From contig CAMPDV010000221.1 of NCBI GenBank assembly GCA_946699065.1, positions 1-64,000 of the forward strand: 64,000 nucleotides of DNA, written 5' to 3'. The DNA comes from Loxodes magnus (taxonomy: Eukaryota > Ciliophora > Karyorelictea > Loxodida > Loxodidae). A program made the position numbers and the translations under genes. The notes below the pieces were generated by a model, which made no database searches, was not told the origin of the DNA, and saw only the letters and a program-made list of their open reading frames with translations. Below, in pieces: positions 18,051-49,260 of the stretch (position 1 is its first letter; every line of letters starts with the position of its first letter).

Positions 18051-18416
18051 ATTAAAAATTGGTTAGCTTCAAGAAGGGTTTTTACACCATCTCCTCAATG
18101 TAGGAGAGAAAACCTGAAGCATTTTCTTCTACCACGTCTTCGCTTTAATTAGTCCAACCTTCTTTATTACGAATGGAAACCAGACTTATAATCCAAGCTC
18201 TCAGACTACACGTAGCCATTATCACTGATCAAAGAAATACGATATAATAATATAATCAACAGAAAAAGGACACCAATATATCTATATTTGGACAGATTTC
18301 ACTAAAAGGAGAGTATAAAATAAGAAAGGAATTAAGTGGTAAAAAAAGTCACGACCTAAGTTATAATTTAATAAAAGAATGAACAACTAATCTCGGACAA
18401 CGTCCCTGAAGAATAA

Positions 18417-19946
18417 ATGGTAAGAATCTACTAAAATGCCTATGATGATCTATCAGATATGGTGGCTGCAGTTTATTTTAACCACTATCTGGAAAATACT
18501 GATTTAGTAGAGAAAAAGGCCATAGACTAAGAAGTAATAAAAGTGCTTAGAAATCAAATATGAAGCAAGTACGGACAAGCAGTGGCCAAATTCATCGTCA
18601 AATAAAATGGAATAGTATATTTAATATTCAACAATAAAGAAAGATACTAGCAATTCACTTAATTCAGGGAATGAACTTTCAAAGGCGTTAGAATTCCTAT
18701 CCAAGCAAGAAATTAATTAGAATACTTTGACATTCATAACTACCCAGTTTACTTCATAATAAACAAATACTCAAATATTGAGGAAGTAATGGAAGTAATG
18801 AGAGCTTATGGAAAATCTAGAGGAGAGGTATAGCATACATACCCAAGCACTACGAGGCTAACAGGTAGAAGTGTAGTGTACTTAGATTTAAAGGATATAG
18901 ACGAAGCAAAGAGGATATTAGAAGTAATAGACCTGAACGGAAACAAAATGAGAATACAGCACCCAGTAAGGTTTATCTGCTGTCTATGCAAAGTGAAAGG
19001 ACACACAGATCAATAATGCAGAAGGGTGGAAGCAGCGAAAAGGAAAAAAATACATACAAGAGAATTAGAGATGCTTGAAGGAGAAATTTAATTAACAATA
19101 AACAAACCAGAATCAAAAGCAAATCAAGCAAATAAGAGGATAATTGAAGAAGGAGAGTAAATGATTATAGAGGAAGCTAGGGAAGAAGAGAAGGAAATAA
19201 AACGAGGATAATAGGAAAATAATTAAAACAACTAAACAATTGAATAATAAAAAGTCTTTTATACTAAATGAATAAATAAGAATTATTTTTCATCAAAATG
19301 GAATTGGGCATATGTAAGGCAGAGGAACAGAGAAATGTTCATAGAACTAAATAAAATAGAAAACAAACAATTATACAATAAGATATAATATAAAACAAAT
19401 CAGAGAAAAGGATAGAATAAGCGATGGTAAAAAAGCTAAAATCTAACAGAAGAAATAAGAAAAATCAAAATAACATAATGTAGTATGTAAGGAAAAGCAT
19501 TAATTAAGAAAAATAAAAAAAGAAAAAGAACAAGTTCAAGAAGAAAAAGAATAAAATGCAAGATAAAAGTGAGAAAAAAGAAACAAGCTTCAATTAGAAT
19601 TTACTATGCTAAGAAATCGAAAAACAAAAATGAACAATTACCATACAACAATTAATAGGAAAAGGCAAAAGAAGAAGAATAGAATAGATAAGAAGAAGGA
19701 AAAGATAGATAATAAGTGGAAAAATATAAAAAGGGGAAATAACTAATAATGAAGAGAATAGGGAAACAGAGAATGATAGATAAGATAAAAGAAAGATAGA
19801 GTAGGAAGATGAATAAAAAGAAGAAAGGGATGAAGAAGAAGCAGAGGAGAAGGGTGAAAAAGAAGAATAAGAATAAGTCATAAAAATAGGGACAGCAAAT
19901 GTTAGAGGAGTTAGAAGTACAAAAGAGGCACTAGCCAAATTCATGA
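18417..19946 (+). CDS. LINE ORF1, RNA-binding CCHC protein
   Basis: The frame runs from ATG 18417 to a TGA at 19944-19946 (509 codons). The first 170 residues are a globular part (YFDIHNYPVYFIINKYSN, then GRSVVYLDLKDIDEA). A zinc knuckle FICCLCKVKGHTDQQC (C-x2-C-x4-H-x4-C) follows at residues 186-201, then a long K-, E- and R-rich tail. Such proteins coat LINE RNA and assist target-primed reverse transcription. The distal part overlaps the start of the endonuclease, which reads in the -1 frame relative to ORF1, so its last 50 or so codons may not be genuine. An upstream start is possible because the frame stays open to about 18340. Confidence 0.65.
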
Positions 19947-22900
19947 CTCAAAAAAGTATCCACATAATGGTAATATAATAGATTTAGATTGAAGACTAAA
20001 AAGATATGTGTAATATAGCAGAATATAAAAACTTAATAAATGTCGGGTCAAAAAAAGGGAAAGGAGTAGCATTCTATATAAGAAACGACATATGTAAGGA
20101 GATCAAAGAAATATAGAATGTAGTCAACCAAATGACGCTTTTCGGAGGAGCGAGAGCGATGGCCATTGAAATAAGGAGAAAACTGACAGTAATAAATATA
20201 TATGCAACTGTGGCAAATGACAACTAATAATATGAGACATTCCATAACTTAGTGAACGAATTCAAACTTTAAGCAACAGAAAAAGGACTTAATGTAATGA
20301 TCATAGGAGATTGAAATGCTCACATAGAGTAATTAAAACCAAAGAAAACAAACTCAGCTGGTAAGAGAATACTACAGTTCATGGAACAGAATAATTTAAT
20401 ATGCCTTGATCCAATTGAAATAGGTACTTACATTCACTAAAACAATGAATATAAAATAGATTACTTTTTAATTGAAGAGATAATGAGAGAAAAGGTGATA
20501 AAAAATGATTTTTATTACTCATACGTAATAGGGGACCACAGACCTGGTATTATATAGATAAAGATTGGTAAATAAGTTAGAAAACCATAAAAGATAGCAA
20601 AATAAATTATCTACTATTAAAGAAAAAAGAGATCTAAGAATAATTTGAAAGATTTATAGAAGAAAATATCGAAGAAGAAGAAATAGAAAGCCTAAACAGC
20701 ATGTACCCTTATAAATGATGAAAGAAAAAGATATAAGAAGCAGCTCAAATGGTATGTGGAACAGTTAAAACATAAAATTTTAAGATAATAAATACTCAGA
20801 AACAACAAAATAGTGCAATAAAATTTTCAGAAAATGCAGCAAACAATTAAAATAAAGGATAAAGAACAACGAAGAAATAAATGAAAATCAACAAAACATA
20901 AAATATAGAGAATACCAAAGAGTAAGACAAGAATACATTTAATCAAGGAAAAAAGATAAAAAAAGCTAACTTAACATATTTATGGACAATGTAAATAAAG
21001 GAAACCTGACAGAAATGTGGAAGAAACTAAAAAACATACTTAATAGAAAAAACAATTAGTGAGTACCATTATCAAAAGAAGATGTTAAGAATTTCAGGAA
21101 CGAATGATAGCAACTATATGAAGATGGCGATAATACGATACCAACTAAATTCTTAATCAAGAGATAAATAGTGGTAAACGAATATGAAATTTGAGAAAGC
21201 ATTAATTAATTGGCGAAATGAAAAACAGCAGGACTTGATGAAATTTAAGAAGGAACAATTTTAGCTGGTGGGAAAAAATTAATAGAAGTAACTTGCAAAA
21301 TGATAGCTAAGATGATTTAAGAGGGAGTAATACCTTAGGAGATGAAACAACAATACATAATATTAATATACAAAAAGGAGGATAAATGAACCCGATGAAC
21401 TATATACCAATCTCTTTATTGAATCATGCTTTAAAAATTGTAGACGCGTGAATTTTCTAGTAATTGTAAGGATATCTTCATAATGATGAAATCGAATACT
21501 AATATGGTTTCAAAAAAGGAAAATCATGCGCACTATAAATCTTCAATCTAAGAACAGTATAGGAATGGTTAATGCGGAACAAAAAATATTTATTTGTAAT
21601 ATTTGTTGATATTAAGAAAGCTTATGACTCAGTGCAAAGAAAGGACATATGATAAATCCTAAACGATCTAAAAGTACCGGAATAGATAATTAAACTATTA
21701 ACAAAATTCTACTGTGAAGAAAAAATTTAACTGAAAATCAACGATTAAATAGCAAAGACATTCGCGACAAATAAAGGGCTAAAACAGGGAAGCATAACGT
21801 CGCCAAGACTATTTAACTTGATAATAGCAAGACTTCTCCATAGCTTGGAAGATTAAAAGCTAGGAATCACGATAGACTATAAAAACGAAGAGGGATGAAC
21901 ATAAGAAATATATGCAGGGTGTTTTGCATATGAGATGACCTAGCCTTAATAAGTGAATGAGAATAATTAGAGGAAGTAATCAAAAATTTAACTTAATGGC
22001 CAGAAAAGTATAAATTGGAAATTGCAGACAAAACAAAATGAATGATGTGAAAATCAGCAGAAAATAGTAACTGGAAAAATATTGGAAATTGCAGACAAAA
22101 CAAAATGAATGATGTGAAAATCAGCAGAAAATAGTAACTGGAAAAATATTGGAAATACTATCGAGGTGGGAAATTTAAGGATCTAAAGAGTATTGACCTT
22201 TTAGTACCTAGGTCATATAGTAGAAGAGAACATTAATTTTGAAAAAAACATGGAGAATAGACTAGAAGAAGCATGAAAAATGCAAACATGAATATTGGGA
22301 AAAATAACAATGAATAAGGGATTAACACCATATAATGCAGGAATAATGATAAAAACCTTCGTAAGCTCAGTTTTCAGTTATGGGACAGAAGTGATCCCAT
22401 ATTGCGAATAATTTGTAGGAAAATAAGAGATGGAGCAACTATAAATAATATAGAGAAGATCTTTACGAACAATCATAAATGCCCCTTTTTAAGAGCAAAA
22501 TGAGATGTTAGAACTCGAATTGCAATTTATGAAATTTAAACATCACCTATGACAAAAAACGTTGAGATTAAGAGGAAAATTAATAGGAAACAAAGGAAAA
22601 ACCGTAGACGGATTACTACTCGACCTAAGTAAAGAAGAGAATCTTATATTTGAATAATACTGCACAGCAATAAAAGTAGAATTAAAAATTGAAGATAAAG
22701 AAATATTTATAGATGATGGTAATAAAAATTAAAAAGGAAAAAATACATTAATCGTGCAATATGAGAATACAAAGTATACGTAGAAGATAGAGAAAGGATG
22801 GAGTAAATGATAACAACATTATAATATAGAAAAACATGATTTGATGAATATGTAGTAGGACCACCCAACTTCCTGAGATATAATAAAAATAGAAAAGAAG

Positions 22901-23345
22901 AAATATGCTACCTATTTAGAATAAGAACGAGATGTAATGGGAGCTAGGATTGCTTAAAAGAAAGACACCTAGTTATGACAAGCCAATGCCCTTTCTGTAA
23001 CAATGCAAGAGAAAATTAAAGGCATATCATAGAAAACTGTTCAGAATACAAAGAAGGAAGATAATAATGTATCCTAAATCTTAGAGCAATAGGAGTAGAG
23101 AGATAAGGAATGGAACTATTTGATATAATATGAGGAACGGCCAAATTCGAGAAATTCATTAGAACCTAAGAAGAGTAAAAAAAGAGCTAAAGCTGACTTT
23201 ATAATAAAAAATTATATCAAAGATATATTAGAAAAAAGGAAAAGAGGATATATAGAAAAGAAAATTGAATGAAAAAGAGAAATAGGAAAATACTATAGAG
23301 CAGGAAAAGGATAATTTTTATGACTGTATAAAAGCTTGATCAAGA
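19700..23345 (+). pseudogene. LINE ORF2: endonuclease, reverse transcriptase, zinc motif
   Basis: The endonuclease begins IKIGTANVRGVRSTKEAL near 19880. Catalytic landmarks are MIIGDWNAHIE (W from TGA at 20312-20314), KIDYFLIEE and GDHRPG. The reverse transcriptase shows KTAGLDEIQEG, MNYIPISLLNHALKIVD, YGFKKGKSCA, motif A FVIFVDIKKAYDSV and motif B GLKQGSITSPRLFN. Motif C survives only as WDDLALISE after a frame change. The C-terminal domain has SQCPFCNNARENQRHIIENC. The start is placed in the acidic linker and is uncertain. At least three frame changes lie between endonuclease and C-terminus, one near motif C, and a 67-bp duplication (not a multiple of 3) adds another. No RNase H domain was recognised. 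Confidence 0.75.
22014..22147 (+). repeat. 67-bp tandem duplication inside the LINE
   Basis: Two identical 67-bp units, 22014-22080 and 22081-22147, each starting attggaaattgcagacaaaa. Identity of the units shows the duplication is younger than the element's insertion, and its length breaks the ORF2 frame. Confidence 0.95.
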
Positions 23346-23554
23346 AGAAAAGAATTAGAAATGAAAATTATTAAGATATGTAAGAAAAAATAAATTAAGC
23401 TTGCAATAAAGATCTAATAAAGCGTAGATAGATAGAAGACAGAAGAGCAAGAGTTAACATTGAGGAAAGTGAGGTAGATATGTAACTAATAAGAGAAGAA
23501 TTTCTATTACCTGAAGGCTTGCTTGAAGAAACGGACATATATTGAGATATGTAA

Positions 23555-23615: not shown

Positions 23616-24452
23616 TTATTATCCTATAAAATTTCATCCTTTAGTAATTTCAGATTAAACTTAAAGCTTGAGAGTTCTAGAAATAAAGTAACTCCTTAAG
23701 AGTTTCCATTGAAGTTCCATTCAATAAATATTAAATGAAAGAAGCATCAAAGGATGTTTAAGTTAACTGAGTTACTATTATCATAATTATTATTTAGAAG
23801 CATCCATTTACAATTACATATGATATCCTTATAATAGACTTTGTAAAATATTTTAGTATTGCTTAGGAAATAAGTGATAGAGGTATCATTTTAATTATAT
23901 AAATTAGTAGTTACTAGATTTACTAATATAATTGATGCTTAGAGACTTAATATTTTAGCACTCTTCAAAATCTATTTTATTGAAGTTTTTAATACTTCCA
24001 TCTAAGCCGAAAAGAATCCCCACAACTCTCCATATCCAAGACAATAAGGTATTATTCTATAGCAATACTATCTAAATGCTTAGCAATAAAAGAAATAGTT
24101 AGGTGGATATTTACCTAGGATAATAAAAGAGGAACGCATTTAATAAATGAGACAATCTAAAGGTTTGGATTAAAAGAAGAATATAAGCCAACTAGTAAAA
24201 TAAGCTTAAATATTTAAAGTGAAAATCATATGTCTAAGTTAAGTGTTCATATCAGTATGGGTTAATTTATCATGATAATGATAAATTTAGGAGAACTTAT
24301 CCGCTAAGAAGCTTAAAATAATTTATTTTTAGATAATAAGTTATAAAGTAGTCTTTAGAGTGTAATAAAGAATAATACTTTCATATATTTAAACTTATTT
24401 ACTAACCTAAGAATATCATTTCATTTTTTTATTTTAACTTCTTATAAATAAA
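23616..24452. other. No gene seen
   Basis: AT-rich sequence with neither family motifs nor repeat matches that I could recognise. Confidence 0.4.
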
Positions 24453-24500
24453 ATGTCAGCAACTAAGTGTGAAGTGTGCGAAGAAGAGTTCAAAAAGCTG
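24420..24500 (+). pseudogene. TRIM family 5' stub
   Basis: The family leader (attttaacttcttataaataaa) and ATG at 24453 are followed by MSATKCEVCEEEFKK, nearly identical to intact members. Similarity then stops abruptly after about 45 coding bases. It looks like a breakpoint inside codon 16, not gradual decay. The standard-code frame at 24469-24657 is a shadow. Confidence 0.6.
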
Positions 24501-25705
24501 GAATATCATGTCCACAGAATGTTTTCGCACAGTTTCCAGTCTGGAAATCTCAGATTATTATCACTTCATCTGCCCCCACCGATACAATTCATTTCTGGTC
24601 ACTTGTTATTGCTACCGATCTAACTGCTCTCACATGTCCATTCAATACTTAGACTAAAAAATTAAAGAATACTTACCTTGAGATAAGTCGTAAAGTATTT
24701 TATTTAAAAGCTTTTAGTAGCACAAGTTTGGTAAGATTTCATATTTTAAAATAAGAAAAGGTATTTCGCCTAGAGAATATATTCCTTGTCTATAGAGTTT
24801 TCTTAAAATGATACTTTTAATAAATTACTTTTCTTTATCTTCCATTTTATACCTCACTTTAATGACTGTTTAATTAAAGTAACTCATCTTGAGAAAATAG
24901 TTTTTTTAACTTAATTTAATTACAAATTAATAATTAAACTCTTTATTATTATCCCATTTTATACCGAAGAATTTCTATCCTTACTATAATAGCTTTACTA
25001 TGTATTTAGATCGAAATTCTCTTAGCTACAAAAGTTCCATTTCTTTATCAACCTTTTTGAAACGATAAACAAAATAGTACATTCTAATTACTTTGAAACT
25101 ATCTGCGATTAACTATTCCATTTCACTTATACTTGTAAATGTTTTCTTTAAACTTTTTTATTCAAAAAAAGTAAACTAAAATAAGTTTCTTAGTAGTTAG
25201 TTTATAAAAGCATACCTTGAATAAATGGAAAAGAGGTATCTAATATCTAAAGCAGAGTATTAAAATTTTTAACTTATTAGCTAAATCATTTAACTATCCT
25301 ATTTCTCATTCCTTTTCCTTCCTTTTATATGAAAACTTTTTCTCTTAAAATAATTTGCAAAAGTAGTTTACTACTTATATTTAATGCTCGCTCTAAGTAG
25401 AAACTGATTGTATGCATTTAATAAATTAAAAAAGCTACAGAAAGTAATTGTTTAAGAGAGTCTAACAAGGAAATGCTTGATCACTCATTCCAGTTTACGA
25501 TTTTTTAATTGTAACCTTTTGCTTTTCAATAAACCTTTAATATGCTTAATTATGTCTATTAAGGTTTTTCAAAAAACTAGTTAGAAAATTATAGTTGGAT
25601 TGGGGATTTTACCTTAGTAAAGAATGTATCCTTTTAAAATCTAATCATTTGCATATTAAAAAAAAATTCATTTAGCCTACTTTGGGGATTAACAAAAAGG
25701 GAAAT
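24501..25705. other. No gene seen
   Basis: AT-rich sequence with no recognisable motif, paralogue or repeat. Confidence 0.4.
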
Positions 25706-25882
25706 AAGCTAAGTCTAAAAAGCCATTCACCTAATACTGTGACATAGGCTAGATAGAGATTAAAATTGGTATAGAAGCGTACTCAAAGAATCATACTATT
25801 CAGAATACTTCTGTCATGCCTCGCTTCACTTCATCCGATTTCTCTACCCAAAAGGAGGTGAAATACTAAGAGCAGGCTAGCA
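25706..25882 (+). pseudogene. Dispersed fragment of the LRR/CNBD gene
   Basis: About 175 bp match codons about 120-178 of the minus-strand LRR/CNBD gene at 53286-57095. The copy is still in one frame: HTIQNTSVMPRFTSSDFSTQ and KEVKYQEQ are virtually the same in both. Flanks do not match. Conservation of the peptide despite third-base differences could mean the piece is recent or was under selection. It lies directly before a LINE 3' fragment, so retrotransposon-linked capture is possible. Confidence 0.75.
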
Positions 25883-25949: not shown

Positions 25950-26995
25950 TACCTGACATTTTATGCTTTATGCAGAATTTTATCGCTTCCTAAAGCAGAA
26001 TATGGCGGTGAACTAATGCCTTGATCTATTTAAAATGGAATTACCGAAATATTAATAAAATTGATAAAATCATGATATTGATAACAAGAAAAGCCTTTTA
26101 ACACCTGGAAATACTTTTAATGAGATTTGTTATATAGATCTTAATTGAATACCATTTATACATATCATGGCTCTAAGATTTTCTAAATTTGTTTACAAAT
26201 TACAATAAGAAAGTATAAATCTTCCTCAATCAACAATAGGCTTCCTTTTTAAGAATAAATGATAAGAAAGATATTAATTTACAGATTAAGATGTAATCAA
26301 TTTAAAATAATCAAATGTATTTCCTGAAATAACTTATACTAAGTTTAACAGACATAGAATATAAGACATAATTTCTATTTTCAAACTGAGGACCTATAAT
26401 TTCTAATACGAACTTAGTTTGTGTCACATAACCGCATAAAATGGAATTGATTGAACGTGTGGTTTAGCTCATGATGAACTCGATCATATATTTGAATGTA
26501 CTTTATATAAAGATGTCTTTTAGGAATGATCTAATCGAAAAATATTTAACGACAATGATTATAAAAAACTAATTCTGTACGAATAAAATGATATTAAAAT
26601 CAAACTTTGCAAAAAGTAAAATCCCTATGATTGACAAATATATTAAGATTTTCATCAAAAATTGCTTAAAAAAAGGATAGAAAATAAAAAATTTAGCAGT
26701 TGAAACAAAAAGAATAATTGATGGGAGAAAAAAATTTAAGAAAGAAATTTAAATAATGGTTGTGAAAACAAATAAGAAGAAAATTGAAAATAAGAAGAGA
26801 GAGAGGAAATTGCGAGAACACAATTTAAAACCAATATAGAAGAAACAAAAGAATAAGAGTAGGAAGAATTAACTAGAGGTTGATAATAAACTTACATAAA
26901 CTCTTATACTTAGCATAATTCGCATGAAATAAACTATAAGTAGTGCAATTATGTCCTAATACTCAAAGTATTAAAACTTTTTTATCTTATTATTA
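25950..26995 (+). mobile_element. LINE 3' fragment
   Basis: The frame LPKAEYGGELMPWSIQNG near 25985 is the post-catalytic region typical of LINE reverse transcriptases (a YG..L.PW-like block). Near 26410-26500 a C-terminal zinc-like motif follows: GIDWTCGLAHDELDHIFEC. Several W codons are TGA. The catalytic domain and 5' part are absent, as expected from 5' truncation. Similarity to the 18-kb LINE is only at domain level, so this is another lineage. A SINE-like unit begins right after it. Confidence 0.6.
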
Positions 26996-27006
26996 TTATA
27001 TACTAT

Positions 27007-27417
27007 AAAATGGATGTCAGCCGCGTCAGCCAAACCAGTAGGTAATCTGGTACAGTGTATACTGCATTACGAGTAATCTCGCACTAGATGCCACCACGGG
27101 GAAGGGTGGATGAGCTTCGTTAAAACATACCTGACTTACTCCGAAGGTTCTCTCTAGCAGTATGAAAATTTGACTGACGGGCCTTCTAATTACCGACTTA
27201 ATAACTAATTCTTATTTGGACCTTATTCAAGAAGACTGAAGCATTTGACTCAAGATTTTAGAATAATTTTTAATAAGAAGATTCCCCATTTGGAGAAGCT
27301 GACATAACTCATCGGAACTCTAAAATTATAACAAGAAACATGAGAACATTTTCTTAATATTAAAAAATAATATTGAAAGAGCTACGCGCCAATGAGGTGC
27401 TACGCGCTCTATAATCA
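27007..27417 (+). mobile_element. SINE-like unit, copy 1
   Basis: A 410-bp unit shares its whole length with 32105-32498 and its first 170 bp with the minus strand at 62996-63168. The head contains short stems (accag/ctggt, cgag/ctcg, ccacc/gggtgg) and the conserved block agatgccaccacgg. TGGTACAGTGTA resembles a pol III A box; a convincing B box is absent. The middle carries gacgggccttctaatta. The 3' end (27378-27416) is agagctacgcgccaatgagg, tgctacgcgctctataatc, the same tail as the LINE at 23555-23592. No protein frame is evident. The combination of no ORF, structured head and borrowed LINE tail defines a SINE. Confidence 0.7.
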
Positions 27418-27419
27418 TT

Positions 27420-28310
27420 TTTATTTATTTATATTTAGAGATTAAGTAGCGAAAATATCCTAATATTACGAAATAGATATTAATAATTAGGAATATAATA
27501 GTAGCATAAATACTTTTACTAAATATGTTAAAAGAAAGACTCAACATATATTTTATGAAATAACTACTTAAAGACTGAAAAGAATACCTACTGCTAAGTT
27601 ATTTGTAGAATAATTAGATAATAATTTTAATTCCCGTAAATTACCTATTCAAAACTTAATAAATAATATCGAAAAGAAATAATTAGTTCATACAAGCTCA
27701 GAACCTAAAATCAATATTTTTGCAAAATAATAAGAATAATCATTATTTAATTGAGAATCCCTATTGTATCTGAGGAAAATTTAAATAATTTGAACATATT
27801 CGGGATTGCAATTGCTAAATAGATATTCAAGAAAAGATGGTAGCAAAGATTGGATAATGCGGCATACAGAATTAATAATCTATGACCAAAATTATATCGA
27901 TTAATTGCCAAAAAACAATTTAGAATGCATTGATTTGCTAATCAAGATTTATCATATGATATAGCTTAAAAAGAGGTTAAAATTATTCGAATTGGAAAAA
28001 AACAAATGATAAGAAAGCTAGGAGACTAAGGGAAAAGATGTTAAAGACTGAGAAAAGGAAGAAGAGAATGATGAAAATGAGCAGGAAAAGAAGAATAAGT
28101 AGAAGATTAGAACAAATAAACTGATGACGATGACCTTTTTAAAGAAGAGGATGAAGATGAAAGAATGAAGAGTTGAAAAATTTTTAAATAACATTATAGC
28201 ATCCTTAATTAAAGGAATCAATTCCAACAATAAAAAGATGTAGGAGATTCTTTCAGTTGAATTTAAATTTATTTTTAAGAAGTTTAAGAGATTCATATTA
28301 CTAAATTAGA
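27420..28310 (+). mobile_element. LINE 3' fragment, second
   Basis: A plus-strand frame reads ENPYCIWGKFKQFEHIRDC near 27755, a C-terminal LINE zinc motif comparable to the one at 26.45 kb, followed by a K- and R-rich tail (KARRLREKMLKTEKRKKRMM) to about 28100. The reverse transcriptase core is missing. It lies immediately after the SINE-like unit, so the SINE may have inserted near or within an older LINE end, or the two may have arrived separately. Confidence 0.45.
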
Positions 28311-28486: not shown

Positions 28487-31231
28487 ATGTCAGGATCTAA
28501 GTGTGAATTATGTGAAGAAGAATACAACTAAGAACTTAGAAGGCCTAGATAGTTGGACTGTGGATGCATTCTCTGTGAGAAATGCTTGAAAGGTATTTAT
28601 AAACTCCAAAAGAAGTTTCTATGCAACATTCACAATGTCATAACAGAAAGACCAATCGATACACTACAAATTATGAATCTAGCTATTCAATAGGAATAGA
28701 ACCTCACCCTTTAGGATATCTGTTAGATTCATAATTAGCATTTCTTAACTCTATATTGCATATAAGATAATATAAGAATCTGTGGCTAATGTGAGTAAGC
28801 AGTACATCAAGAGCATAAATGTATCAGTTCATAAGAAGCAGTCTAGCATTTAAAAATCTACATATAATCTACTTTTAAAGCTATCAAGTAGAGAATAGAC
28901 TACCATATATTAACTTTGAATCAATGGCGAGGACAGTAAAGCTAGTAGTAGATATCAAGAATAGACAATATAGTTTAAGTATAACTACAGGTAAAATAAA
29001 ATATTAATTTTGCTTGTTAGGAGATGGTAGAAGTTTAATAATTCCAAATAGAATAATAAATGCAGTTACTTAAAGATACTTCTGATTATTATCATCAAAT
29101 AGTTAGTTAGATAAATTATTTCTCAAATACATCTTAAGATAATATTGCTTAATGTGAGGAAAAGCGGAACTAATTGGACCAACTTTAGTTAGCAATATAG
29201 GATAAGTTTCAACATATATCATAATCCTTTTATATCCTATGATAAGATAATTTAAACATTCAAACTTACTAAAATAAAATTCTTGCTCATATAATGGAAC
29301 AGTTTTAACTTAAAAAAGCTTATTTAAACTATATCTTTTAAGAAAAATAGATAAAGCAATTATAGTTAGCTATAAAGCATCAATATAAAAACTTTCAAGA
29401 AGCGCATCTTTAATAAGAAAAGCAAGAATAGGAATATCGTAATTAAATCTCTTCATTAGAGCAATAAGTTTCTTATTACTTAAGTTAAACCAATAATTTA
29501 AATCAATAAATCATCAATTAAAATAAGAAGATATAGGAATTAAAGGGACTGCTAACATAAACTAAATATGAAGGTGCTCAAGCTTTCTAACAAAATACAC
29601 ATGAAATTTTATTACAGTAGAATAAGGATGAATAACTGCAAACACATAATAGGTAAATAAATTAGTTGAATTAATAAGCTCTTGAGAAGGTTTCTTAGAT
29701 ATAAAATTTGAAATAAGATCTCCTCAATAGTAAATAAGAAAGCTTAAATCTTAAAGTCTGATTATATGACAAGTTGGTATAAGAGATGATTAAAGATAAA
29801 TAAATAGCTGAATTAACTGAATAGTTTAATAAAGCTAAATAAGAAATCAGCAATTTAAGTACTACAATTTCTAACCTTAAGAGTAGCCAACTCTAATATA
29901 CTTAAGGTATTTAAGAGCTTCAATAGAAAATAGTAGATCTTCAATAGAATCTTACAGCTAGTTAATCAAATATCACTTAATTATAAGGATAGTTATAAAA
30001 ATTATCATAAGAGAACATCAATTAGCAAGAGTAGTTAAGGATCTTATTAAATGAATAAGAGAATTTAAAAGCAACTAATAATTAACTGGGAAACACTAAT
30101 AAAAATTGGATTGATTAACTAAATTAATAAAGTTAATAAATCTAAAAAGTAACATATTCTTTGGATTAATATAAGTAATAAGCCTAATAGATTTAAGTAA
30201 GCAATTGGAGTGAGGTAGTGAATGAGCCTATCTATAAATTTAGTTTAACAAAGAGAATAAATAAGGAGTCACCTAGGATAGCTGCTTATAAGAGGGTATT
30301 TTATGGTACTAATAAGATTTAAAGTTACTAATTAGAAAATGCTAATAACTCATGCAACTATAGTACGGTTTCAGCACTTACACCTATATATACAAATTTT
30401 TCATCGACATATTAGATCGATGATGATCTATTAATATAGGTGGGAGGTAAACAATCGGAAACATATCTCGATAGGATCTTATAGATCAGTATAAACTCTA
30501 ACTCCACCACTAGCAACACTAATACTAACAATATTAATTCCAACAAAAACTCAACAATAAAAGCATAAACTAATTTAATCTAGCCAAGAGTAATCAGATA
30601 GATGGGATATGATAATGACAGATTAGTGTATATAATAGGAGGAGTGGATCCAGCATTAAAAACTTTACTTACTCATAATTACTATAACTACTATAATTCT
30701 TTTGAAGTATATGACATAGGAGTAAATAAATCTAGATCTTTGGTTAGTTACAAGGACTATATCTCCTATAATGCGATATATGTATAAAATCAAAGAGTTT
30801 GACTATTAGGTGGTAGAATCTAAAATCCAAATAGAACTAGGGATTTCAAACGATCAAGCTTAATATCATCATATGACATCATATTGAATGCTTATTAAGA
30901 ACATAATATCTAATTGCCAAAGCCAGCTTCTTCTTTAGTAAGTGTTTATGTGAATGAGATTGAGTAAGTATATATATGGGACTAGAATAATTATCTTAAC
31001 TAAGCATGTGTGTATGACAATAAGATAATAATAAAAGATGGCTAATAATATCCATAATTACCTAATGCTTTCTGATATAATGGTATCTACATCAATAATA
31101 GACTATGGATGTGGAGTAGTGCTTATAAAACAGATGCTAACATAATATATATATATGACATAAAAGGAGTTACCAGAAATAACATTAAGGAGAGAGAGTG
31201 GGTTTCTTTGTAATTAAGTGAGAGCAAGTGA
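28487..31231 (+). CDS. TRIM-like RING/B-box/coiled-coil/Kelch protein (914 aa)
   Basis: The reference member of the family; unbroken from ATG 28487 to TGA 31229-31231. The RING ligands are C6, C9, C25, C27, C30, C33, C46, H49. The B-box 2 is textbook: C79, H82, C91, D94, C99, C102, H107, H110. A Q/L-rich coiled coil covers about 115-600. Kelch blades run about 610-905 with GYDNDRLVYIIGGVDP at 707 and LLGGRIQNPNR and NNRLWMWSS later. TGA codes W in RVWLLGG and AFWYNG. A TAA six codons before the end is read as Q (SLQLSESK), and a second TGA lies one codon after the stop. Expected role: E3 ubiquitin ligase, Kelch propeller choosing the partner; inferred from domains. Confidence 0.87.
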
Positions 31232-31420: not shown

Positions 31421-32104
31421 AGGATGTAATAGAGATTTATGCATTTATCTATATGATAAGCAATTAAATCTCAAATATTTTATATAAAATTAAAACGCCT
31501 AAATTCTTAATAATTTTCTTCTTACTTCTAAAATATTTAAAACTATAAGCTTTATATTTTTTTACTTATAAAAGGAATACTAGTATTTTTTCAATTGCTA
31601 TTAGTTAATATTTCGTCAGATGTTTTTTCTTGTTTTTTTGTTTCGCACATTTATGTCACAAGTGTTACATACTGTTGAAAATGAAGAATCATTTTCTTAG
31701 TCCATAAAATATTCTTTCTTGTCTTTCTATTTCCATATAAAACCTTTCGAAATATTCTGGATATTTTCTTCATTTAGAAAGAGTTATTAATCTAATTAAA
31801 CACAATTTTTTCTGTTTTTCTCTCTCATTATTCAGATATCATTCTCTAATCCAGTTATTCATTCATAGACTCGGTTTTAGCTCTTCAGTCTACCTTAAGG
31901 ACTTTATTATAATCTTAATAATTTATGAAATCTTTACTTATTTTGAATATTTCTTGCTTCTATGCGTTTAAGTGATCTAAAATTTTTAAGATTAGTTGAT
32001 ATATTTACTGTATCATCTATATTCGAGTATTTAAGTGGTAAAAGATTGAAAATAAGGAGAAATTAAGTATTAAGGTGATAGATATTAGAATATATTAATA
32101 TAAA
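31421..32104. other. No gene seen
   Basis: T-rich on the plus strand; no motif recognised. Confidence 0.4.
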
Positions 32105-32498
32105 AAATATGGATTTATGCTGCGGTCAGGAGAACTAATAGGTAATTTGGTGTAGTATATACTGCATTGCGAGTAATCTTGCATTAGATGCCACTACGGA
32201 AAAGAGTGTATAAACTCGGAAGAGACAAGTCTAACTTGTCTGAGGATTCTCGCTAGCAGTATGAACGTTTGGATGACGGGCCTTCTAATGACTTAATTAC
32301 TAATTCTTATTTTGATTTTATTTAAGAAGACTGGAGCATTTTGTTCAAGCCTCAAAAATAATTTTTAATAAGCATATTCCCCATTTGGAGAAGCTGATGT
32401 GACTCATTGACGAATTGAATGAACAACAAGAAATTGAGAATACTTTTTTTAATATTAAACAAGTTGCGCGCCTATGAGGTACTACACGCTCTATAATA
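32105..32498 (+). mobile_element. SINE-like unit, copy 2
   Basis: The same family as 27007-27417, with roughly 75-80% identity by eye. The stem gacaag-tctaa-cttgtc (around 32241) corresponds to GATAAG-CTTAA-CTTATC in the relative at 63.1 kb: both sides changed together, which supports a folded RNA. The tail is ttgcgcgcctatgaggtact, acacgctctataat. TGGTGTAGTATA takes the A-box-like position. No target-site duplication could be recognised. No ORF. Confidence 0.7.
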
Positions 32499-33239
32499 TT
32501 ATTTATTAATTGCTTATAAAATAATATGAATATCTTATATAAAACAATATATAATTATGACTTGAAGTACTATAAATTAAAAAAAAATTAGTAAAAGATA
32601 AATTAAAATTTAAAATTAAATAAAAGAGTTTTTTTACGTCTTTAATTGCAAAAAACGCTTCCTTCATCTATAGACATAAGTAAATTTCTATAAATTGCTT
32701 TCTAATTTTGTCTTTATCTCATCCTTATTCTTTAATTAAACCTTCTTTCTACTAATCTTTAACTTCTTCCTTTTTTGCTTTCTACATTTCTAGAATTTAA
32801 AATCTTCTTGTCATTAGCTTCTTGCGAAATATTTTGATTTATAAGTTTAAATACTCCATTTTAAACCTTAAAAAGGAGTTTATATATTCTTGATTATATA
32901 GTATGAGACGTCTTTAGTCAAAATTCCCTATCTTTTCCGATAGAGAATCCCTTTTATTAGAATAGTATATACATTTAAAGGTATTCTCAAAAGTCTCATA
33001 CTCTTCACACATATAATAGGGATTATCAATAGGATAATGAAGATCTTAAAGATCCTTACGAAAATTAAAAGATTAGGTTCTAAGTTTATATATACTGATA
33101 ATTTCTCGTCTATACTATTTGTTTAATTTCGTATAAGTAATTAGTGGAAATCGCTAAATATTACAAAATTACTAGGTATATATTTTAACTGCTTTCATTC
33201 TTATTAATTTTTTAGTAGTTCCATTATAGAAATATTGTT
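32499..33239. other. No gene seen
   Basis: AT-rich sequence between the SINE-like unit and duplicate B; nothing recognised. Confidence 0.4.
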
Positions 33240-33400
33240 GTATTTTGTCTCTTATGCTTGTTAGAATTTTAAATTAGTGTTCTAACTCTTCTCATATAAA
33301 ACCCAAGAACTTTCCAATCTTCTATGTTTCATGTTTAATACATTAAAATGTTCTCCACATGCCTCATACTTGGCTATTTACATTAGCTTATTTTATAAAT
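33240..33400 (-). pseudogene. TRIM family RING remnant (duplicate B)
   Basis: The minus strand reads KYEACGEHFNVLNMKHRRLE, a decayed version of KCEACEEDFNQGLRKPRQLD, then VLYEK for ILCER. Several zinc ligands are replaced (C to Y). It pairs with the copy at 5580-5745 in duplicate A. Confidence 0.5.
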
Positions 33401-33802
33401 CAGAAGTATTCATAGAACCAGTTTGCATTTACTTGATTAGTCTTGAGTATCTAGTCTTGAATCTTTATTTTATTTTTATAATACTGAGTATATGAAATCA
33501 CTGAAATAAATCTAAAATAGTTAAGCTTTTATATATTCCAGTTCTAAGCATATCACTCTTTATCTTACTCCTATTTTTGTGTTTATCTAAATTTTAATTA
33601 TTCAAAGTGTCTATAGCTATAACAAAGGTATTTAGAGTAATTTTCTTCCATTTTTAGTATAGATTTTAAAAGTAATTATTTTATATCTAATTAATTAAGT
33701 AATCAATTAAAGCTAATAATGATTATTTATATAGCTTATATTAGTCTCTTTAGTAGTTTATTAAAGAGATATTTGCTATTTTTTAATTATAGATAAAAAT
33801 AA

Positions 33803-34110
33803 AATGTCAATAGTTTAGAGCTGAGAATGTAAAATATTTAGTTTGCTGGATTATAGATTTAGTGGAGCAATAAGAAACTTAGAATGCCTAAAAATATAAA
33901 TTATGCTCGTTTGTTCAAACGAATCATTACAATGTAAAGACTAATTGAGTAACTTCTTATCATTAATCTAGCTATCTAACATGAATAATTGCTTAATCTT
34001 TAGGAAATCTGCTAAACTCATCAAGCAGGAGCTTTTTTTTCCTTTCTATTAAGCTAAAAGGTATCTTCTCAATATAAGTTAGTTAGTCTAATTAAAGTGT
34101 AGAAGATAAA
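33803..34110 (+). pseudogene. TRIM family RING/B-box remnant (duplicate B)
   Basis: ATG 33803 begins MSIVQSWECK, then LLDYRFS where intact copies have LLDCGCI. The rest matches the B-box equivalent up to the sequence ctttaggaaatctgctaaac. Only a few ligands remain. Confidence 0.5.
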
Positions 34111-36009
34111 AAGTTAAAATAATAGTTAAAAAAATTAGAAAAAAAGGTGAAAGAGAGAAAAATGACTAGATTATAACGTTTATTGAGTATAGCATTTAAC
34201 ACCACATGTTTTGTTTACTTGTAAAGTTCTGTTCTAATTATATTATTTTATTATTCATGTTATTCTCTATATTTCAGATGACCTTTTTCATCATCTTTAA
34301 AGCATCATAATGCGCTTGATTTTTTCATTTTCCTTGAATTCCTGTATTTCTTGCTTAAGGCCTTCAATGCAAGTAAATATAAAAATATTTCGATCCATTG
34401 AGTCTGAGTTTAAAAACTTACAGAAAGTATTGGCTCACTAATTATTTTAATTAACGTGAAGCTTCTCTTAGCTAATATTAGCTCTTGGAGTTTCATGCAT
34501 TAATGATATTTTATTGTATTCTCCTACATTAACTATAACTCTTCTCCACTATTTATATAAACTTACTTCGATTTTACTGTGTGAAGATGCTCAAAATTAG
34601 ATAGAGTTTAAATCTTAATTACGGTATAGACTATTTTCATAATTGGAGATATGGGTATTTAATTTTTACTATCGTTCTATTAATAAAATATATCTAAGTC
34701 TTCTTAGCAAATAACATTTTATCTCTTAGATTAGGTGATAAAAGCAAAGCATCTCAGGACTTCTTGAAAACTTTTTCTTACGTTACTACGGAGGTTCCAT
34801 CTCAGGGTAATTCCCCAAAATTTTAAAAGTCTACATACTCGCATGGTTCTCCTCGATATTTGACAGATTTGAAAGAATTATTTACTATTCTTAGTGAACT
34901 CCTCAGAGCTTTTAGTTTAATTAAAGGATATCTATGAATATTTAAATTGGCTCAATAAGCTAGTATCTCACCAATTAGAATTATAATAACTTTCCTTAAA
35001 AAACGGAAATATCTTAAGGAAAAATTTACTCTCTTTTATCTTTTATCTAAACTAATAATCTAATATCATAATACTAGGTATCAATTTGAGATGCTATTTA
35101 GAAAATTGAATTTAATAAGCAAGTTAATCTGCTAGATTAAAGCTTCAAAATTCTTAGTATCTCAAATAGAATGTTATTAATAAAGAAAATTAGAGATAAG
35201 GATTAAATCTGATCTAATGAATCAATTTTCACTAGTAACTTGATATCTTTGATTGATTTCAAAAAATGAAACAAGTAGACAGAAGCAAACTAATTATAAG
35301 GCTAGGAGATAAATTACTCTAGGAATGCAAGAACTCTATCAACTCTTTTTATTAGTTTCTCCAAGAAGCTCAATTATATTATTTTTTGATTACAATTATC
35401 AATGCTCTCTATATAAACAAGTAACCCAAAAGAACATATAAAAATAATTAAAACTAGTGCATTCAGTAAATTCTTTAAATTGTCTTTAATTGTAAGAGGA
35501 TTACTTAATAGAAGCTTTTCTATGTTTTATAATAATGAATTATGTACATGTTTATATTTATATTTATTTTCACTCAATTTTAAGATAAAATCTAATGATA
35601 ATCTACTTTTAGTTATCCTTAAAATTCGATTATACTTAAAGAATGAAAAATTAGTTAATAAATCAATTATAAAAATAGAAGATGTAAATTTAATAATCTA
35701 TTCTAGTTTACTATTAAAATACTAACATATAATCCCTTTTACAATAATTAAATAGCTATTATGATTGATATAAATTAACTTCTTTTATGAGTTATAATCC
35801 TCTTTTATGCATCACATATTATACATATGAAATGCAACTTTGAAAATGTTCTAATTTGTGATAACAATTTTACTTGAGAAGCCTTAACGTATTTTACATT
35901 AGATATAGGTAAAAGTAGAATATTAGTTAATATGAATGGAATTCTTAAACTAAGTGATTATAAATAATTAACCTCATAAAATTTATTAACTCTTAGATTA
36001 GTAATTATA
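34111..36009. other. Duplicated flank, then unmatched AT-rich sequence
   Basis: 34111-34990 matches the flank of copy A. 34991-36009 has no counterpart there. The standard-code frame 35480-35725 has no recognisable motif and ordinary AT-rich composition. Confidence 0.4.
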
Positions 36010-36415
36010 AAGCTACTTCTTATTTTACGTCTACTCATATTTTAAGATTTTGCATTTCCAATTCTTCAATTAGATTTTCTGTAATCATATTTGCATATCA
36101 TATGTGACTTTTTTAAGGGTTTTAGGTTGTTTTCAAAAAATTCTCCATAAAATATATTCGTAACCAAATTTTCTTGGTTTTGTGTCATTTTAGTGAGACT
36201 GTTACTATACTTTAATTTATTCATGTATTCCTAGATCTTAGACTAATTACTTTAAGCAACTGAAATCAGCTGTTCAAGTCTTAGAAAATTTTCTTCTTCA
36301 TATTTTTTCAACCTAAAAGCTTTTAATAAGCTTTAGTTGAGTTATTTTTTTATACGTTTTATTATTTTCTTATTTTTCTTTACCTTGCTAGATATTTCTT
36401 CATCTTAGACGTGAA
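36010..36415 (-). pseudogene. TRIM family remnant (duplicate B, minus strand)
   Basis: Counterpart of the start of 8590-9745. The stretch MITENLIEELEMQN near 36070 equals MITENLLEELEMLN in copy A, itself the decayed RING end. A stop-free frame begins at ATG 36413, but zinc ligands are gone. Confidence 0.45.
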
Positions 36416-36915
36416 ATGTTAGAAAATTAGTTAATAGGATTAATATTGAATGATTAGTTCTTGTTAGTAGCTTAGAATGCCTTTCTCTTTTTGAAAATAT
36501 TTCTCTCATTTAATAAATTCTGTATGCGTTAAACTACTATATTATATCTTTATTGATAATATTTGTTTTGTATATTTAAAGACTTTAGCAAATATTTAGT
36601 ATCTTAGCTATTATCTATTAGTAGTCTTTAAATATTGCTTGTTTCTTTTCTGTTCGTTCTTATTATTATTTGTATTTGTTTCTAACTATCTATTTCTAAG
36701 TTCTTACTTTTAAAAATGGATCATACTACAAAATAAGAGGTTGTTTCTTCCATTTTATGTAGTAATTTTAAAAGTAGTTAATAATTATTCTTTAATTTAA
36801 TAAGTAATCTCGTATAATTATTAAATACACGTCAGTTTTTTATTTTTTTCTTTAGAAATATCTATGCAATAAAATATTAAGTAGCATTTTTGTTTTTAAC
36901 TCATTCAAAAAGTAA

Positions 36916-39653
36916 ATGTCAGCCACTAAATGTGAAGCTTGTGAAGAAGACTTCAACTAAGGGCTTAGAAAACCTAGACAGTTAGATTGTGGTTGTATTC
37001 TTTGCGAAAGATGTTTGAAAAGTATCTACAACCTCTATAAGAAGATAACTTGTAACATTCACAACATCACCACATAAAGGCCAATCGAGACACTCCAAAT
37101 CAGGAATCTAATTATCTAATAGGAATAAAATTCCACCCACTAGGATATCTGTCAGATTCATAATTATTACTTCTTAGATCTATATTGTATATAGGATAAT
37201 ATAAGAATCTGTGTAAAATGTGTGTAAGAATCGCATTAAGAACATAAATGTATTAGTTCATAAGAGGCAGTTTAACAGATAAAGAGTTACATAGAATTTA
37301 GTATAAAAGTTATTAAGTAAAGACTAGAATACTATATATCTACTTTGAATCAATGATATAGACAGTTAAACTAGTAGTAGATATCAAGAATAGACAATAT
37401 AGTTTAGATACTACTATAGGTAAAATAGAATATCTAATAAGCTTGTTAGGAGATAGTAAATAGCTAACAGTTCTAAATAGAATAATAAATGTAGTTACTT
37501 AAAGATACTTCTGATTACTTTCATTAAATAGGTAGCTAGATAAATTCTATCTCAAATATTTCTTAAGACAGTATAACTTAATATGAGAATAAGTAAAACT
37601 AATTTAATTAGCTTGAACAAGCCATTTAAGATAAATTCCAAGATATATCAAAATCCTATGAAATTATTCATTAAGATAATTTAAGAACTTAAAATATCGA
37701 GAATAAACTTCTAACTAGATTTATGGAGCAATTTTAGCATAATAAAATTTATTAAAGCTATATCGTATAAGCAAACTAGTTAAAGTAATTATAGTTAGTA
37801 ATTAAATAACAATATAAAGAATTTCAAGGAGTATACCATTACTAAGAAAAATAAGAATAAGAATATCATAAATAAATCTCCTCACTAGAACAATAAATTT
37901 CATATTATTTAAATTAGGTCAATAATTTATATCAATAAGTCATCAATTAGAATATAATAATATAGGATTTAAACAATTAACTTGCACAAACTAAATAAGA
38001 AAATGCCCAAGCTATCTAACAAAATGCAAATGGGTATCTATTATAGTTAAGGAATAAGGATGACTAACTACAGTCACATATTAGGTGAATCAATGAATTA
38101 AGGTAACAAGCTAGTGAATAAGTTACTTAGATATAAATTTTGAATTAAGATCTTCTCGGCAACAAATAAGAAAACTTAAATCTTAAAGCCTAAATATAAG
38201 AAAAGTTATAATAAGAGACGATTAAAGACAAAAAAATTACTGAATAATTTGAACAATTAAATAAAGTTAAATAAGAAATTAGTGCTCTAAGCATTTAAAT
38301 TTCTAATCTTTTGAATTAGTAATTTTAATATGAATATAATATTTAAGAGCTTTAATAATAGAAAGACAAACTTCAATAGGATCTTACTGCTGTTTAATCA
38401 ACTATCAAATAATTAAAAGAGTAATTATAAAAATTATCATAAGAAAGCAATAATTAAAAAGAATAGGTAAGAATCTTATTGAATGAATAAAAGAATTTAA
38501 AAGTCTCTAATATTTAACTGGAAAATAATAATAAAAACTAGATTGATTAACTAGAGAAATATAGTTAATAAATCTAATAAGTAACGGATAATTAAATTAA
38601 TATAAATCCAAAAATTAATATATAAAGATAAGCAATTAGAGTGAGGTAGTATTAGATCCTAACTGCAATCATAGCTTAACTTAGAGATTAAATAATGAGC
38701 CACCAAAGATAAAAGTTTATAAGAGAATATTTTATGATACTAATAAGATCTAGAGCTACTAGTTAGACAACGTTAATAAATAATGTAACTATAGTACAGT
38801 ATCAGCACTCACACCAATAACAACTAATTGATCATCGACATATTAGATCAATGATGACCTATTGATACAGGTGGGAGGTAAATACAATGAAACATATCTC
38901 GATAAAATCTTATAAATCAGCACAATAAACTTCTACGCTAACACTAACATTAATACTAATAGCTCTGCAATAAAAGCATAAGCCAATTTAATCTAACCAA
39001 GAGCAATATCACAAATGGGATATGACAATGACAGATTAGTGTATATCATAGGAGGACTGGATCCAACATCAAAATCTAAACCTTCTCATGATTATTTTAA
39101 TTACTATAATTCTTTTGAAGTATATGACATAGGAGTAAATTAAGCTAAGTCTTTATTTAATTACAAGGACTATATCTATCTTAATGCGATATTTGTATAA
39201 AATCAAAGAGTTTGACTATTAGGTGGTAGAATCTAAAATCCAAATAGAACTAAGGATTTCAAATTATCAAGACTAATATCATCATATGACATCATATAGA
39301 ATACCTATTAGGAGCATAATATCTAATTACCTAAGCCAGCATCTTCTCTAGTAAGTCTCTATGTGAATGAGAATGAGTAAGTATATATATGGGACAAAGG
39401 TAATTATCTCAACTAAACATGTGTGTATGACTAAAAGGCAATAATAAAGGATGGCTAATAATATCCATATATATCTACAAGCAAGTCTGACTTTTGATAT
39501 AATGGTCTCTTCAGTAATAATAGATTATGGATGTGGAGTAGTGCTCACAAAACTGAGGAAAATGTGATATATGAATATGACATAAAAGGAGCTACAAAAA
39601 ATAAAGAATAAAAGAGAAAATGGACTTCCTTGTAATTGAGAAAGAGCAATTGA
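36916..39653 (+). pseudogene. TRIM-like RING/B-box/coiled-coil/Kelch gene with one frame break
   Basis: All domains are present: RING (KCEACEEDF, LDCGCILCERCL, CNIH), B-box (CQIH, YC, CVKCV, HQEH), long Q-rich coiled coil, and Kelch blades (GYDNDRLVYIIGGLDP at 39018, VWLLGGRIQNPNR, LWMWSSAH). The stop TGA 39651-39653 is followed by another TGA one codon later. Compared with the gene at 28487, one base is missing near 38580-38600 at the end of the coiled coil; frames before and after are otherwise clean. The gap is not a GT-AG intron, because the following residues (INQYKSKNQYIKISN) align with coding sequence. One conserved W (SNWSE) is Q here through TAG. Young pseudogene, sequencing indel, or tolerated shift. 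Confidence 0.75.
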
Positions 39654-45784: not shown

Positions 45785-47672
45785 TATATCAATAAATCAT
45801 TATCTATTTAATATGTTGATGATCAGATATAAGAAATAGGTGCATAGTAAAAACAATTTTGTATTGACCTTTTGTATTTCTCTTACCTATATCTTGCTGA
45901 TATTGTAGAATTTTCTCTTATATATTTTTAACTACACTTCTTAAATGAGCTACTTACTTTCATCTTTTACCTTTTCTGATATCTCTTTTCATTTCTAGTA
46001 CTCAATAATATTACCCGTTTTAATTAATCATTTATTATATACAGTCATCTAGCCAATATATTTTCTTATTTTATAGTGGAAAAAGCAACCTTATGTCTCT
46101 TATTCTAATACATCCTTAGATTATTACATCTCTCTCTCTAAGATATTATTATTTTCACCTATTTATTCATATTTTCTCTTTCCTTTACTAATTTTTCTAT
46201 ATCATCTTATCTCTATTTTATCTAACTTGCAGCTTATTTCTTTACTATTCTACATTTTATTAACCTTAATGTCATTCTTTCCTTTCTTTCTTAAACTCTT
46301 CTATCACCTTTTTCTGCTCCTTTGTTTTTGTGTTAAAAAAATCATTGATCTTCCTAAAATTATCAGCTCATTCTCTAATTCTTTGCCTAAATCTCTTTTT
46401 TAACTTAATACTAATTTAGGTTTTGTATTTGTCATAAAAATTAATTTTTTTAGTTGTTTTTATTAATTAGCTTGTTCTAACTCTTTTATCTAATTCTGAT
46501 ATTCGATATTCTTCCTAGATAATTTTAGCATCGATTCATTAAGAAATTTTATTTATTACTCTTTACCCTAAATATTCCTTTTCACTTCTTACTCTTTCTA
46601 TTTAAAGTTGAGTCATTTTCTTATGCTATTCTTTTTCTTATCCACATCAAGATCTTATAATATCTTAATTTAGCTAGCATTTTAAATTTTCAATTCATTT
46701 AAAAAGGTCTCGAACTCTTTCATTTAACTAGCAAAAGCCATGGTTAACTTTTTTCTTTACTCCTCATATTATCTTACCTAATTTAGTGTTCTTTTCATAA
46801 TGTTTAAAGAGTTTTCTCGTATACATATCTATTTATTATCTCCTCCTTTACTTATCTTATCTTACTCTCCTCCATAAGCTTTTCTACCACTGAATTTTGC
46901 ATATTATTTACGCTTAACTACTCGTATATTTATGAACGTTTTTTTATTTTATTAACTGCTTTTCTTATAACCGCAATTCCAAAACATATCTCACTCTTCT
47001 TAGTCTCACATTACTATATTGTATCCTATTGCATTTATCCAATACGCTCTACTTACTATATCATTTCAAAACATTAGTTTTAGCTTTATTTTATTTCCTT
47101 CATATACTAATAGGCTATTTCTTTTGTTCTAATTATCAATTCTTTACATGTTTAATCAATCTTAGTCTTTTACTTAAATGTAGCCTCTTATTTCTATTAG
47201 TCACCTTAACTTTAATTATGTGCTCTTATTATTAACCTAAGACTTATATATACTTATCTAGTTTTGATTTATAATACTTAAATTAAATTAAATTTAGATC
47301 TATATAACTGGAATAATCTCTTCAATACTACCCATTTGATGACTAGCATACCAATCTTAAAGACATCTACCACTGAACTCTATGCTATCCTATATGCAGT
47401 ACATAATTAGAGGCTATTAATGAACTTAACATCCATCTAAGATATGTTTTCTTAGCCCCTCTCCACTAGAAGAAGTAGCAATTTCCAATGATTCAATAGT
47501 TCTTTCTTTTAGTATGTTATGCTTATTGTATTTAAGCTCTCTTTGGAACTATGGAAACTTTTCAAGCATCTCTCAAAGAGACTGCAACCACAATCTAATC
47601 TTCTAGATCTTCTTACTTCTTAGTTGAACTATTCTTCACAGAGCTCGCATTTAACTACCTAGACTTGTTTAT
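45785..47672 (-). pseudogene. TRIM/Kelch family remnant on the minus strand
   Basis: On the minus strand, a RING remnant at 47672-47500 reads VKCELCEEQFNQEVRRSRRL, DCGCSLFERCLK. A B-box trace follows to about 47300, a long K-, E- and Q-rich coiled coil (KRDLGKELENELIILGRSM) at about 46760-46000, and a last piece of Kelch blade SSTYQIDNDLLIYLGN at 45790-45850. The start codon is not conserved, frames differ between parts, and most of the Kelch domain is missing. It meets the preceding plus-strand gene tail to tail. Confidence 0.6.
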
Positions 47673-48919: not shown

Positions 48920-49260
48920 TAGGAAGAAAGTAAAAAGGAGTGTTCTTGTGTGCTTACTGAAAAGTATTTGAAAGGTTTCTTAAAATTTTAATAGAAACTA
49001 ATACGTAGCAAACATAGTTTTACTACCTAAAATAAATTGAATTTAAGATTAATTTACTAAGGATAAATAGAAGGATTGTAAAGAGAAATAGATAAATTTA
49101 CTAAGAAGTCTTAAATTCTTATTGCATATAGGATTAAATTTAAGTTAATAACTAGAGTAAAATAAATTAACACTGAAGTTTTGAGTAAATTTCATTAAAA
49201 ACTAAAGAGAAGAATTAGGTTAAGATAGTATGCTTGAAGAAGGATTTAAATAAATATATA
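48920..49260 (+). pseudogene. TRIM family RING/B-box remnant
   Basis: KKECSCVLTEKYLKGFLKFQ then SKHSFTTQ matches CGCILCERCLKGFYKLQ and HNIITE of the intact family, followed by ILIAYRI for the B-box LYCIQDN. All but two zinc ligands are lost. Confidence 0.5.

Follow-up and report, generated by a model that had tools for sequence, protein, structure and literature searches.

Animal TRIM proteins frequently play a role in immunity. A family combining the RING, B-box and coiled coil (RBCC) order with Kelch repeats in a ciliate would add a further branch outside animals, or else a second origin, to a design that is central to animal innate immunity. The available text of Sardiello 2008 describes the tripartite motif as exclusive to metazoans, while mentioning unpublished B-boxes in some protists, and its list of C-terminal TRIM domains does not include Kelch (PMC2533329). 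By the RBCC rule in the same text, the coiled coil lies within 120 residues after B-box 2 (PMC2533329). TRIM37-type genes with a MATH domain are reported from alveolates and other eukaryotes (Marin 2012; PMC3503706), and one TRIM37 orthologue of Dictyostelium is named in the accessible part of a review (PMC5758549). The initial annotation of the DNA analysed here called the motif typical of animals, which holds in part but is contradicted by the TRIM37-type genes of alveolates and others in the portion of Marin 2012 available (PMC3503706). Among the matches listed from the open-licence literature, we found no report of an RBCC-Kelch or TRIM-like family in ciliates; B-box and Kelch are named in separate proteins in the text available of one further article (PMC3498115).

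Four groups of proteins invite comparison. In BTB-Kelch proteins (KLHL, KEAP1), the Kelch propeller is the target-binding part of a ubiquitin ligase, and NHL repeats also form a propeller. The NHL-type TRIMs (TRIM2, TRIM3 and TRIM32; Marin subfamily C) have, like the family described below, a RING, a single B-box 2 and a coiled coil, which in these TRIMs are followed by NHL repeats, according to the available text of Sardiello 2008 (PMC2533329). The TRIM37 type (Marin subfamily A), reported in alveolates, has a RING plus one B-box in common with it, according to the available text of Marin 2012 (PMC3503706). The Tetrahymena protein Zfr1p is also a ciliate protein with an N-terminal B-box; it has 448 residues and a C-terminal hydrophobic region, and the accessible text mentions no RING, coiled coil or Kelch among its features (PMC3519685).

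Gene layout and genetic code

We analysed a window of 64,000 nucleotides, which is AT-rich throughout (GC 0.23–0.34 in 4-kb steps). The gene at 28487–31231 (+), here called G28, consists of 914 codons plus TGA in a single frame under table 27, and the coordinates and frame initially assigned to it are thereby confirmed. It encodes, in this order, a RING-like module, a B-box 2, a coiled coil and a Kelch region. Four further full-length copies lie in the same window.

Under the standard code, the window contains two frames of at least 200 codons, both inside a tandem array; once TAA and TAG are taken as Gln, the number rises to 72. We counted 375 TAA and 162 TAG codons over the five family copies. 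When the copies were aligned, TAA or TAG stood opposite Gln in 1367 of 1961 ordered comparisons and TGA opposite Trp in 67 of 113 (15 of the 67 being TGG). A TGA was also found at most five codons from the last aligned residue in every copy. We conclude that the code of the window is the karyorelict code (table 27), in which TAA and TAG encode Gln and TGA serves as both Trp and stop. The Condylostoma code (table 28) was considered as well, but the TGA codons close to the ends of the copies and the reading of TAA/TAG as Gln throughout fit table 27 better. A ciliate host for a TRIM-like family fits these data, the code being compatible with Loxodes; the code of Loxodes magnus is the subject of 2024 work (PMC11441545).

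Four internal TGA codons of G28 are read as Trp. At two of them, codons 252 and 425, the remaining copies do not carry Trp, so that there is a small chance of a premature stop there.

RING-like module and B-box 2

The RING-like module of G28 (residues 6–49; 28502–28633, +) has the ligands C6, C9, C25, C27, C30, C33, C46 and H49, and the B-box 2 (residues 79–110; 28721–28816, +) has C79, H82, C91, D94, C99, C102, H107 and H110. All 16 zinc-ligand columns, eight in each module, are invariant across the five copies. Only two other Cys or His residues occur in residues 1–115 of G28, H85 and C112, and both vary among the copies. Of the first 115 columns as a whole, 35 show no variation; the hypergeometric probability for the ligands is 2.7×10−10, a value that is indicative only since the copies are related. 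The canonical B-box 2 ligands (C-H-C-D-C-C-H-H) that had been claimed are thus all present and invariant in five of five copies. The same applies to the eight ligands listed for a RING of unusual ligand order, which is C-C-C-C-C-C-C-H.

The Pfam B-box model scored above its cut-off of 24.1 bits in all five copies: 28.6 bits in G28 (residues 77–114) and 25.7, 26.3, 32.8 and 37.1 bits in the other four, two of which were scanned whole and two as N-terminal pieces. The model zf-RING_UBOX was also listed in each copy, in none above the cut-off (G28, residues 6–46: 17.8 bits versus 25.2; the others: 12 to 16.3 bits).

We compared a profile of residues 1–260, covering the RING to the early coiled coil in six rows (one being a decayed piece), with PDB sequences. 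With E values no higher than 1, it retrieved 44 distinct sequences, of which the top 24 were TRIM-family chains, some of them engineered fusions. The lowest E value was obtained with TRIM3 (1.4×10−7), followed by TRIM5 (4.4×10−7), MID2 (2×10−5), TRIM28 (8×10−5) and the TRIM32 RING (1.3×10−3). In the TRIM3 match, the aligned region takes in the B-box and continues into the coiled coil; the RING stretch by itself does not reach significance (i-Evalue 23). A RING-only profile (five rows) matched 15 PDB sequences with TRIM32 first (6.8×10−4), then an RNF4 construct, Roquin and TRIM23; it also picked up FYVE domains weakly (E 0.055 and worse). The best matches therefore come from NHL-type TRIMs, TRIM3 for the B-box and coiled coil and TRIM32 for the RING.

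AlphaFold modelled residues 1–260 with a mean pLDDT of 56.0 (near 50 in the RING and mostly below 40 in the B-box), values too low for the model to confirm or contradict the RING and B-box folds. Foldseek with this low-confidence model gave 597 matches when E values as high as 10 were allowed and none at E 0.001, and there was no TRIM among the best 50 of the 597.

Coiled coil and Kelch region

The long coiled coil noted at the outset (G28 residues ~115–575, about 460 residues; 28829–30211, +) was delimited by the start of the model helix and by periodicity. A period of 3.4–3.65 residues follows the B-box in five of five copies, exceeding the level in 300 shuffles by 4.5–9.9 s.d.; the Kelch region, used as a control, gave −1.3 to 0.4 s.d. 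Each copy has zero or one proline over the 246–461 residues of the coiled coil. The AlphaFold helix begins at residue 115, where pLDDT is ~54, and reaches at least 70 from about residue 130. The coiled coil thus starts within 120 residues of B-box 2, in agreement with the RBCC spacing rule.

The Kelch region of G28 (residues 576–914; 30212–31228, +) was assigned by Pfam and a PDB profile, and six repeats were counted by eye. Pfam Kelch_1 exceeded its cut-off in one of the three full copies scanned whole, the copy at 11895–14567 (G14m), and G28 was below it; with an E limit of 1, the same model was listed for five of six Kelch-region rows. The Kelch profile matched 23 PDB sequences, the best a Kelch protein at 2.5×10−7, a value that sums two stretches reaching 0.21 and 1.4 separately. 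The remaining sequences were SAKe6 constructs, KEAP1 and KLHL3, the latter two weakly (E 0.3 and above). Invariant columns amount to 35% in the Kelch region versus 9% in the coiled coil. The Kelch blades of the initial annotation are accordingly supported as repeats, by Pfam Kelch_1 and the PDB match; that they form a propeller is a prediction, and the mean pLDDT of the region is 31.7.

Other domains of the related groups were sought with Pfam. With the E limit set at 10, the five sequences (three whole copies and two N-terminal pieces) yielded no MATH model, and neither did the six Kelch-region rows with a limit of 1; in such searches the HMMER filters drop most weak matches. NHL repeats were listed in neither set, and neither a BTB nor a filamin domain was listed in the five sequences. 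NCBIfam gave matches far under their cut-offs, most within the coiled coil. Compared with the NHL-type TRIMs, therefore, Kelch takes the place of the NHL repeats, no filamin domain was found and the coiled coil is long, at ~460 residues; by the RING alignment, the family carries Cys at ligand position 4 and His at position 8, where TRIM32 has His and Cys. The MATH domain characteristic of the TRIM37 type was found by Pfam in no copy, and, unlike in BTB-Kelch proteins, the zinc modules are on the same chain as the Kelch region.

Pattern searches of collections not meant for ciliates gave 15, 207 and 58 matches in viral contigs (whole-protein, Kelch and RING alignments, respectively) and 114 in bacterial and archaeal contigs (Kelch alignment), none of which was confirmed; phages gave no match to the family.

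TRIM-like architecture and its origin

What the sequence of the window itself shows is the order of the domains, the zinc ligands, the coiled coil and the Kelch repeats, together with constraint on the protein and turnover of its copies. The TRIM-like architecture proposed for the family is upheld by the B-box in five of five copies, the TRIM-family chains among the best PDB matches and the invariant ligands; judged by sequence, it is very probably correct, and by its predicted design the family would operate as a TRIM does. We consider it likely that the locus represents several copies of a TRIM-like (RBCC) family whose proteins end in a Kelch region, and that the host is a ciliate using the karyorelict code. 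Such a family widens the known range of the TRIM design and would open the question of the role of the TRIM architecture outside animal immunity.

A RING-like finger, a B-box and Kelch repeats might also have been assembled convergently in ciliates, apart from the animal TRIMs. This alternative is compatible with the preferred explanation, and we give it roughly one chance in three. The RING ligand order is unusual, Pfam listed in no copy the MATH domain of the TRIM37 type that alveolates are known to have, and the main article text of Sardiello 2008, from which the list of C-terminal domains comes, has zero occurrences of the word Kelch (PMC2533329). However, RING, B-box 2 and coiled coil follow one another as in TRIMs, and a single profile aligns with TRIM3 over the B-box and on into the coiled coil, both of which speak against convergence.

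Proposed mechanism

By analogy with animal TRIMs, the proteins of the family are probably oligomeric substrate receptors or E3 enzymes. The coiled coil would form dimers or larger assemblies carrying the B-box and the RING, and the predicted Kelch propeller would bind a target protein. The RING would then recruit an E2, leading to ubiquitylation of the target. Assembly and target binding follow from the predicted domains. We rate the chance of RING-dependent ubiquitin-ligase activity as about even, and this is the weakest step of the mechanism, because two positions that we take to be the usual E2-contact sites are altered. At the first, two residues past RING ligand 1, the five copies have Leu, Phe, Ala, Ala and Ala, where TRIM32 has Ile. 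At the second, following ligand 7, none of the five has the Pro found in TRIM32. The residue following ligand 8 is Asn or Ser; TRIM32 also has Ser, so this position does not discriminate.

The same substitutions (Ala in three of five copies at the first position, no Pro in any at the second) are in line with a TRIM-like scaffold devoid of ligase activity, in which the zinc modules and coiled coil would serve assembly alone, on the cytoskeleton for example, and Kelch would bind a structural partner. The great length of the coiled coil also agrees with this explanation, as does Zfr1p, whose B-box is required for correct positioning at the conjugation junction in Tetrahymena, according to the available text (PMC3519685). 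On the other hand, the RING ligands are invariant, and dN/dS in the RING is 0.08–0.36 in nine of ten pairs (one being saturated), low values owed in part to a high dS (0.84–2.62) over only 55 codons. We regard the scaffold as a possible but rather unlikely explanation.

Copies, fragments and turnover

Besides G28, full-length copies are located at 11895–14567 (−; G14m), 36916–39653 (+; G36), 42935–45669 (+; G43) and 50129–52186 (−; G50m). The five extend over ~40 kb (11.9–52.2 kb), or over 3.6–52.2 kb with the fragments. G14m has one frame throughout, with its likely stop TGA at 11895–11897. G50m also has one frame, with nine internal TGA codons and a shorter coiled coil (~246 residues). In G36 a single base is deleted near 38587 (probable stop 39651–39653), and in G43 a single base in an A run near 44435 (probable stop 45667–45669). 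The five complete or near-complete genes first proposed are thus present, three of them (G28, G14m and G50m) in a single frame and two with one 1-base deletion each. The karyorelict code has no fixed stop, so an open frame alone is no proof of a gene, and what counts is the alignment of the family in one frame. Relative to G28, indels are multiples of three in 9/9 cases in G14m, 11/11 in G50m, 3/4 in G36 and 5/6 in G43. The single-base losses of G36 and G43 therefore probably happened recently or reflect assembly errors. Introns were rejected as the cause of these frame changes, as the shifts are 1-base deletions without extra length.

Seven fragments (two weak) were counted between 3.6 and 49.2 kb, fewer than the 'at least ten' first reported. 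Excluded from this count were N-terminal profile hits at 5356–5670 (E 0.007) and 9335–9586 (E 0.02) and coiled-coil-only tblastn matches (some of 27 rows). The fragment at 3630–4593 (+), near the 102-base tandem array, comprises only the Kelch part with broken frames, and the one at 7729–7914 (+) is a decayed RING in which the zinc ligands C33 and C46 are replaced. The fragment at 10165–10818 (+) contains the RING, the B-box and the coiled-coil start and is frameshifted. A RING and B-box in two frames occupy 47297–47658 (−), and coiled-coil-like sequence continues to ~45772. The weak fragments are an upstream region with RING/B-box remains at 33635–34117 (+; E 1.6×10−5) and RING/B-box remains in two frames at 48929–49200 (+; E 9.8×10−5 and 0.059). 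Indels relative to G28 are multiples of three in none of two cases in the 10165 fragment and in three of nine in the 3630 fragment. The 10165 fragment probably died recently, as third-position changes are still in excess. The seventh fragment, at 24425–24499 (+), has only the leader and first codons and ends at a WD40 fragment.

In the stretch 24425–24657, this TRIM-like start (+) adjoins a single WD40 repeat (−; 26.4 bits versus a cut-off of 27), as if two gene relics had been joined.

A diverged segmental duplication (5584–10811 versus 33255–37565; 72–82% in pieces) takes in the 10165 fragment and the start of G36. Pfam found nothing in 31900–36800 and one weak, chance-like match in 4600–9500. 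Whole genes beside decayed copies support a local birth-and-death turnover of the kind suggested for the family.

Selection

By the Nei-Gojobori method, whole-protein dN/dS was 0.30–0.41 in all ten pairs. By part, it was 0.13–0.41 in the B-box, 0.26–0.53 in the coiled coil and 0.29–0.42 in the Kelch region (10/10 pairs). Whole-protein dS was 0.60–1.37, and the copies are therefore not recent. pN exceeded pS in one of 90 sliding windows (30 windows in each of three pairs), located in the coiled coil at residues 451–495 of G36 versus G43; pairwise dN/dS and windows could miss selection at a few sites. We conclude that the family is under purifying selection, without sign of an arms race.

These values leave the role in recognition or conflict initially put forward unsupported. 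Under such an explanation, pathogens or retroelements would have shaped the family, as in the TRIM5-type expansions of animals, and the birth and loss of copies within 49 kb and a LINE-type reverse transcriptase inside the gene cluster would be in keeping with it. We consider it improbable, as the single window with pN > pS is in the coiled coil and the predicted target-binding Kelch region has low dN/dS in every pair and the higher share of invariant columns. Still more improbable is a karyorelict branch of TRIM-Kelch proteins, parallel to the animal expansions, in the role of cell-autonomous restriction factors, with the LINEs filling a genome without DNA elimination as one conceivable target.

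That all copies are pseudogenes is very improbable: two of five are frameshifted, seven fragments are decayed, two internal TGA codons of G28 lie where other copies lack Trp, and the absence of stops is no evidence of intactness under the karyorelict code, but three of five align from end to end without a change of frame, with indels in multiples of three, the ligands are invariant and dN/dS is ~0.3.

Other features of the window

ARAGORN (bacterial code) and Rfam (gathering thresholds) gave no match in the window. An array of a 102-base unit occupies positions 1–3025 with ~30 nearly perfect copies and one irregular junction near 1493; the Kelch fragment of the TRIM-like family begins ~600 bases past it. 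A LINE-type element, recognized by coding signal, lies within the TRIM-like gene cluster at ~18171–23500 (+), with an endonuclease domain at 20186–20545 and a reverse transcriptase at 21374–21865. Inside it, a 67-base unit is exactly duplicated in tandem at 22014–22156. The stretch 54438–58944 (−) carries an ion channel domain (58729–58944) and leucine-rich repeats (~55368–55850), together with a cyclic-nucleotide-binding domain below cut-off (54438–54698, −). Short interspersed repeats at 25708–25876 and 56555–56723 are 89% alike and inverted, and further ones are located at 26990–27429, 32106–32511 and 62996–63183.
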